Source: a virus
DNA length: 24,428 bases
Reading direction: 5' to 3' (one strand)
Virus record (IMG/VR): IMGVR_UViG_3300005577_000083
Span: 1 to 24,428 of that record
Position numbers and translations under genes: made by a program. The first letter of the stretch is position 1, and every line of letters begins with the position of its first letter. The notes beneath the pieces are model-generated. The model saw nothing but the letters and a program-made list of their open reading frames with translations. It made no database searches and was not told the DNA's origin. Of this stretch, positions 8,569-8,702 are shown in pieces.

Positions 8569-8702
8569 ATGGGCAACAGACGAAACCGGTATGAAGGTTG
8601 GACTCGAACCAACGACCTCCGGGCTATCGACCCGGCGCTCTACCGCTGAGCTACTCGCCCTGTAGTGTGGTGAGCGAAGTAACCGATCTCTGACAGCACC
8701 AT
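8569..8702 (-). ncRNA. Y RNA-like unit 2 with tRNA-like domain in normal order
   Basis: Read on the minus strand from 8702 to 8569. The terminal helix is ATGG/CCAT, bulged U, GC/GC, within GGTGCTGT and TGTTGCCC. The inner stem GAGATCGGT/ACCGGTTTC is 9 bp. Residues 8660-8590 form a nearly complete tRNA cloverleaf: GGGCGAG, TA, D arm GCTC-AGCGGTA-GAGC, anticodon arm with loop TCGATAG (anticodon GAT), and T arm GTTGG-TTCGAGT-CCAAC. The 3' acceptor strand is CTTCATA, which pairs with only three of seven acceptor bases, no CCA is encoded, and position 33 is C. It therefore cannot be a normal tRNA. Alternatively, upstream TTCGCTC can pair all 7 bases of GGGCGAG, giving another permuted fold. Confidence 0.8.

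Follow-up and report, generated by a model that had tools for sequence, protein, structure and literature searches.

The window, that is, the whole stretch of 24,428 bases that was analysed, codes for a terminase, a portal protein and a Ro60 (TROVE) protein. Megablast of the full stretch against phage records gave no match, and by tblastn the Ro60 protein is at most 58% identical to Ro60-like proteins of Caulobacter and Brevundimonas jumbo phages. Three Y RNA units lie upstream of the Ro60 gene, on its strand (minus), with the gene directly downstream (Table 1). They have common ends, GGTGCTGT...CGGTTACTTCG at the 5' side and TTGCCC at the 3' side; the motifs flanking unit 2 (GGTGCTGT..GGTTACTTCG and TTGCCC) recur in units 1 and 3, and the Y motifs of the window are also present in Y units at other Ro60 loci. 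By analogy with known Y RNAs, the Ro60 protein is presumably the partner of all three. A promoter and terminator scan gave no sigma-70-like promoter and a single weak terminator-like site. Elsewhere in the window (20526–20619, minus strand) the suhB/mmgR small RNA family is matched weakly, at 25.2 bits against a gathering score of 41.

Unit 1 runs from a partial anticodon hairpin through a T arm and an acceptor hairpin closed by GTGA to a D arm, which is the YrlA order, and its score with the Rfam YrlA model lies below the gathering score. Unit 2 is arranged otherwise: Ro stem 5' strand, acceptor 3' strand, N-CCA, linker, acceptor 5' strand, D arm, anticodon arm, T arm, Ro stem 3' strand. The first nucleotides of its acceptor 3' strand, TTCGCTC, double as the conserved Y motif UUCG. 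The initial annotation had proposed a second tRNA-like Y RNA here, differing in topology from its YrlA-like neighbor, and the proposal is borne out by what follows.

Table 1. Features of the window and Y RNA units at other Ro60 loci (the latter as locus:position).
Feature	Position	Strand	Evidence or remark
Ro60 (TROVE + vWA) gene	6971–8383	minus	Pfam TROVE 9.2e-13, VWA_2 4.4e-8
Unit 1, YrlA-order Y RNA	8414–8536	minus	Rfam YrlA 37.2 bits (gathering score 69), E 5.8e-5
Unit 2, Y RNA with T/acceptor-cut permuted tRNA module	8571–8700	minus	Y-motif flanks; module like that of relatives
Unit 2, predicted Ro60-binding stem, 5' strand	8679–8700	minus	inner helix with 8571–8596, constrained folds
Unit 2, acceptor 3' strand TTCGCTC (tRNA positions 66–72), 5' of tRNA body	8672–8678	minus	7/7 pairs with 8654–8660
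Unit 2, discriminator and CCA (ACCA), inside acceptor loop	8668–8671	minus	NCCA in relatives
Unit 2, linker CACTACA, 7 nt, from CCA to tRNA 5' end	8661–8667	minus	
Unit 2, acceptor 5' strand GGGCGAG (positions 1–7)	8654–8660	minus	pairing and covariation
Unit 2, D arm GCTC-AGCGGTA-GAGC	8637–8651	minus	Rfam tRNA alignment
Unit 2, anticodon arm CCGGG-TCGATAG-CCCGG	8619–8635	minus	Rfam tRNA alignment; 5-bp stem covaries in relatives
Unit 2, T arm GTTGG-TTCGAGT-CCAAC	8597–8613	minus	Rfam tRNA alignment and relatives
Unit 2, 3' flank: CTTCATA (8590–8596), then 3' strand of Ro60 stem	8571–8596	minus	
Unit 3, short Y RNA without tRNA arms	8718–8794	minus	5' and 3' Y motifs, fold as other units
D-loop-cut units, cellular (Acidobacteriota and an Opitutia MAG)	L030:3796, L032:3791, L027:826, L029:3810, L033:1728		
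D-loop-cut units, viruses	L091:2811, L110:2609		
Acceptor/D-junction cut, order D, anticodon, T, acceptor hairpin	L095:2762–2860, L114:2731–2840		
tRNA/Y overlap, Xanthomonas phage Olaya	L042:2300–2370		
tRNA/Y overlap, Kikimora	L041:2275–2349		
tRNA/Y overlap, CcrColossus	L038:1631–1698		
tRNA/Y overlap, GiJojo	L141:2769–2843		
tRNA/Y overlap, Alone3	L143:2774–2847		

The elements which the initial annotation had recognized in unit 2 were all recovered in place on the minus strand. Alignment to the Rfam tRNA model reproduced the D, anticodon and T arms in their ordinary order, including the closed 5-bp anticodon arm with its TCGATAG loop, in which C occupies position 33 and GAU positions 34–36. 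The Infernal comparison suggested at the time gave 48.4 bits (E 1.1e-7), with the match confined to model positions 6–65 of 71, and ARAGORN called no tRNA at unit 2. No acceptor pairing, such as defines a tRNA of RF00005, was found 3' of the T arm: CTTCATA, which had been thought not to pair with the acceptor 5' strand, has a pair probability of 0 at all seven positions. Nor is the anticodon loop translation-competent in the usual sense (7 nt with U33), given C33. Unit 2 had no match to the Rfam YrlA model (RF02553) and does not belong to that family, and no tmRNA match was obtained within the window. What unit 2 does possess is an adjoining Ro60/TROVE gene, ends which pair as a Y-motif stem in constrained folds and, as in permuted tRNA genes, a 3' part that precedes the 5' part with an acceptor that pairs. 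Its identity to tRNAs is about 80% for several isotypes (Val, Ile, Asn, Met), so that no single parent tRNA can be named.

As an alternative to a graft, the initial annotation had considered a permutation cut at the T/acceptor junction, with TTCGCTC pairing with GGGCGAG. All seven pairs form, two of them G-U, with a probability of 0.82–0.84 for five of the seven. The full cloverleaf is not the energy minimum (-42.5 vs -44.0 kcal/mol) in models that take no account of tertiary contacts. Considering the window alone, a 7/7 hairpin arises in about 3% of shuffled upstream segments, and recurrence is therefore needed to decide; a 7/7 hairpin followed by NCCA arises in about 0.06% of shuffles and in 0.25% of native background 45-mers. 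Given the recurrence and the covariation elsewhere, the permuted acceptor as read from the sequences is far beyond chance.

The T/acceptor-cut topology, whose presence in other phages had gone unremarked in the initial annotation along with the ACCA of the acceptor loop, was found in at least 12 records which are partly related (seven belong to one actinophage-like Ro60 clade), namely the window and 11 other Ro60-carrying virus records. DNA patterns composed of a Y motif with D-arm and T-arm motifs, in which neither CCA nor Ro60 was asked for, yielded the IMG/VR examples L045, L046, L047, L053, L054, L056, L057 and L060 (the same as L012), and later L410, with a 7/7 acceptor and ACCA. Ro60-based searches gave L012, L044 and L069. 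TROVE is present in all 12 records, most of which were found by the Ro60-blind patterns. L044 is an isolate, Rhizobium phage RHph_TM21B, in which the Y RNA stretch bears no annotation. YrlA-order units stand beside T/acceptor-cut units in L012, L044, L045, L046, L053, L054 and L069; the two architectures side by side to which the initial annotation drew attention are thus a feature of other Ro60 arrays as well.

In a tree of 138 Ro60 proteins the T/acceptor-cut type is dispersed over several positions, namely the window, L012, L069, L044, L047 (the position of which is unsure owing to long branches) and 7 of 16 rows of the actinophage-like clade. The tree requires at least three gains or losses of the type among the labelled rows, and a type so scattered is not one recent accident. 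Seven bacterial genomes searched with the patterns gave one match, which reads as an ordinary tRNA, and no cellular T/acceptor-cut case. A GGTTCAA variant and, among the matches listed, a TACATC pattern gave no convincing example, the top ranks being mostly low-complexity repeats. With the R1 covariance model run on the loci, ordinary tRNAs reach about 58 bits because the tRNA body is common to both, so that score alone cannot separate the classes; stronger non-member matches were checked at the acceptor.

Covariation was assessed on 11 modules segmented by hand. Pairing of the permuted acceptor holds in 75 of 77 cells (97%), a value reached by none of 20000 partner shuffles, whereas the ordinary-order acceptor is paired in 49, which is chance (4.45 per seven vs a cross-sequence mean of 4.39). 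Six of the seven acceptor pairs show changes on both sides, positions 1–4 with at least three pair types each, and sliding the partners by 1–3 columns abolished the covariation. The seventh pair is mostly U-G since its U is part of the conserved Y motif UACUUC, which thus also begins the acceptor 3' strand.

NCCA follows the acceptor 3' strand directly in 11 of the 12 T/acceptor-cut modules (L047 is the exception) and in 9 of 88 closed acceptor hairpins of other units, mostly YrlA-order with a few D-loop-cut (Fisher p 1.3e-8; counted by six lineages, 5/6, p 2e-4). The comparison hairpins are mostly capped by short loops, many of them stable (TTCG and GCAA, for example). In the NCCA-bearing modules the linkers vary from 2 to 8 nt, with 2 nt in L012 and L069. 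Retention of NCCA is compatible with selection on the CCA and also with its having been taken repeatedly, and recently, from tandem tRNA genes. Among the modules the signature positions of the D and T loops hardly vary, as would be expected of an elbow mimic. A canonical 7-nt anticodon loop with U33 occurs in only three of the 12 (L053, L057 and L069), which indicates tRNA mimics and not tRNA genes; those of L046 and L047 can close to apparent tetraloops and that of L410 has 3 or 5 nt.

Several Y units, assigned by eye from sequence, appear to be cut at other points. Seven carry a module that opens with the 3' half of the D arm and closes with the 5' half, which would place the Ro stem in the D loop, and two are opened at the acceptor/D junction (Table 1). 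NCCA is found in the acceptor loop of a few other-cut units (L152:565–700, of Bacillus phage G; L005:3697; L110:2609; L101:2669). A short Y unit, L004:3551–3640, has GCTC-GCCACACTTT-GAGC as its sole hairpin; its letters are nearly those of unit 2 from the acceptor through the CCA to the start of the linker, and it is perhaps a remnant without the tRNA body. Many YrlA-order units (unit 1, L038, L042, L072, L079, L084) keep a small anticodon hairpin in which the Y motif TCG(C/A) pairs across a 7-nt loop, for example CTTGTAA or CTGTTAA. A loose scan with no chance control gave an anticodon hairpin in 90 of 135 units, 66 of them with T at loop position 2. In some phages a tRNA that has been annotated or called immediately 5' of the Ro60 gene overlaps a Y unit (Table 1), and these tRNAs may be misannotated Y RNAs.

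The other option put forward in the initial annotation, an ordinary cloverleaf joined by its own acceptor end to the Y stem, would agree with the ordinary order of the arms, and one unit elsewhere fits such a design: L107:2832–2930, whose tRNA-Met-like cloverleaf keeps the ordinary order and seems to be grafted on by the acceptor end. In unit 2 the ordinary pairing is at chance, and three ordinary acceptor pairs, if forced, are 7 kcal/mol worse than the permuted fold; the option is unsupported for this unit and we scarcely entertain it. Just as implausible is that unit 2 is a tRNA pseudogene in decay which came to lie between two Y RNA units by chance. The missing 3' acceptor, the unusual C33 and the frequency of tRNA arrays in Ro60 phages might suggest one, but Y motifs flank the module, covariation is seen in the replacement acceptor from phage to phage, the D and T loop signature is nearly constant and Ro60 accompanies the module in 12 of 12 records. 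A permuted tRNA gene deserves somewhat more thought, since the order acceptor 3' strand, CCA, linker, acceptor 5' strand is that of such genes, in which an encoded CCA and very short linkers are possible (PMC3978253). The Ro-like stem would then be leader and trailer, cut out before the T stem and acceptor are ligated to give a working tRNA-Ile(GAU). While the three canonical U33 loops agree with this, C33 in the window and the non-canonical loops of 9 of 12 modules do not, nor do flanks made of Y motifs common to units without a tRNA body. Moreover, the splicing endonuclease of algae and archaea is not known from bacteria, and we hold such a gene to be very unlikely.

A reading with rather better prospects, though still an improbable one, is that RNase P and 3' nucleases excise the linker, so that the Y RNA is nicked and has an authentic tRNA 5' end as well as a 3'-CCA that is free, its halves held together by the acceptor and Ro stems in a manner comparable to two-piece tmRNA. 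This is speculation by analogy with permuted tmRNA, which is matured to two unligated pieces (PMC3978253). NCCA in 11 of 12 loops would be in keeping with it, other acceptor hairpins being mostly closed by short loops; the 2-nt linkers of L012 and L069 are awkward for cleavage, and the Ro stem breaks the acceptor/T stack which RNase P reads. We doubt in equal measure the wider proposition that NCCA marks real processing, that is, a Ro60-tethered two-piece mimic with a genuine 3'-CCA, which tRNA enzymes could read and perhaps even charge, of a kind that phages would have built repeatedly from tandem tRNA genes.

Based upon the anatomy, the permuted acceptor pairing, the retention of NCCA, the recurrence and the linkage to Ro60, all of them read from sequence, we favor, with a probability of roughly 0.85, the reading that unit 2 is a Ro60 Y RNA whose effector module corresponds to a whole tRNA circularised and reopened between the T stem and the acceptor 3' strand. 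Its function is most likely that of a Ro60-tethered tRNA mimic, as for YrlA. From what is published on Y RNA and Rsr, the Ro stem would dock on the Ro60 ring and the tRNA-shaped module would offer a handle for tRNA-binding proteins (PNPase in Deinococcus), so that Ro60 might, in the course of infection, be tied to RNA-processing enzymes or gated by them. Unit 2 would present another face of tRNA than unit 1. Lying between nucleotides 65 and 66, the Ro stem breaks the usual stacking of acceptor on T arm, which may limit the degree of tRNA mimicry. As to origin, the modules may have arisen from windows of one tRNA length in tandem tRNA genes, the CCA and linker being a former intergenic junction; this would explain why there are several cut points with the same arms.

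The T/acceptor-cut Y RNA is, in our judgement, a real variant of a known RNA family and apparently undescribed. We found no published description of this permutation in a check that did not reach the core Y RNA literature, and priority is unproven; the passages on Y RNA or Ro60 consulted in two jumbo-phage papers are silent on permuted modules. That Y RNAs mimic tRNA, in phages also, was already known, with YrlA as the one tRNA-like design. The present observations suggest that tRNA has received a Ro60 stem time and again, in a range of phages and at several points, and that the CCA tail has stayed in the loop. They offer a testable answer on the origin of tRNA-like Y RNAs, namely tandem tRNA genes sampled in different phase, and another on which face of the tRNA partner proteins read, because the T/acceptor-cut type displays a whole anticodon arm and CCA and YrlA does not. 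They also suggest a reason why tRNAs annotated next to Ro60 genes in phages may in some cases be Y RNAs.

Permuted tRNA genes occur in red algae and Thermofilum. Those of Cyanidioschyzon and Thermofilum pendens resemble unit 2 in that the 3' part comes first and is followed by a short linker, and the archaeal cases likewise encode CCA (PMC3978253, PMC3218864). The T/acceptor-cut modules differ from them in the closing stem of Ro60 Y type, the mostly non-canonical anticodon loop and the occurrence in phages. Permuted two-piece tmRNA is likewise a permuted RNA with a tRNA-like part; unlike it, unit 2 has no tmRNA match, another cut point and complete D and anticodon arms. With tRNA (RF00005) unit 2 shares the D, anticodon and T arms and the conserved loop bases, and it departs from tRNA in its permuted acceptor, its C33 and its being missed by ARAGORN. 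YrlA itself is a tRNA mimic and serves DusA and TruB as a substrate, and the tether between Rsr and PNPase in the RYPER complex is a Y RNA (PMC8394870, PMC7790460); in a Listeria phage an Rsr-like gene lies near abundant small RNAs (PMC12282133). YrlA-type Y RNAs (RF02553; Salmonella, Deinococcus and phages) are linked to Ro60, as is unit 2, and consist of a stem with a tRNA-like module, several units to a locus. Their order, however, is T arm, acceptor hairpin, D arm, whereas that of unit 2 is acceptor hairpin, D, anticodon, T, and in contrast to YrlA its anticodon arm is whole and its acceptor loop includes NCCA.
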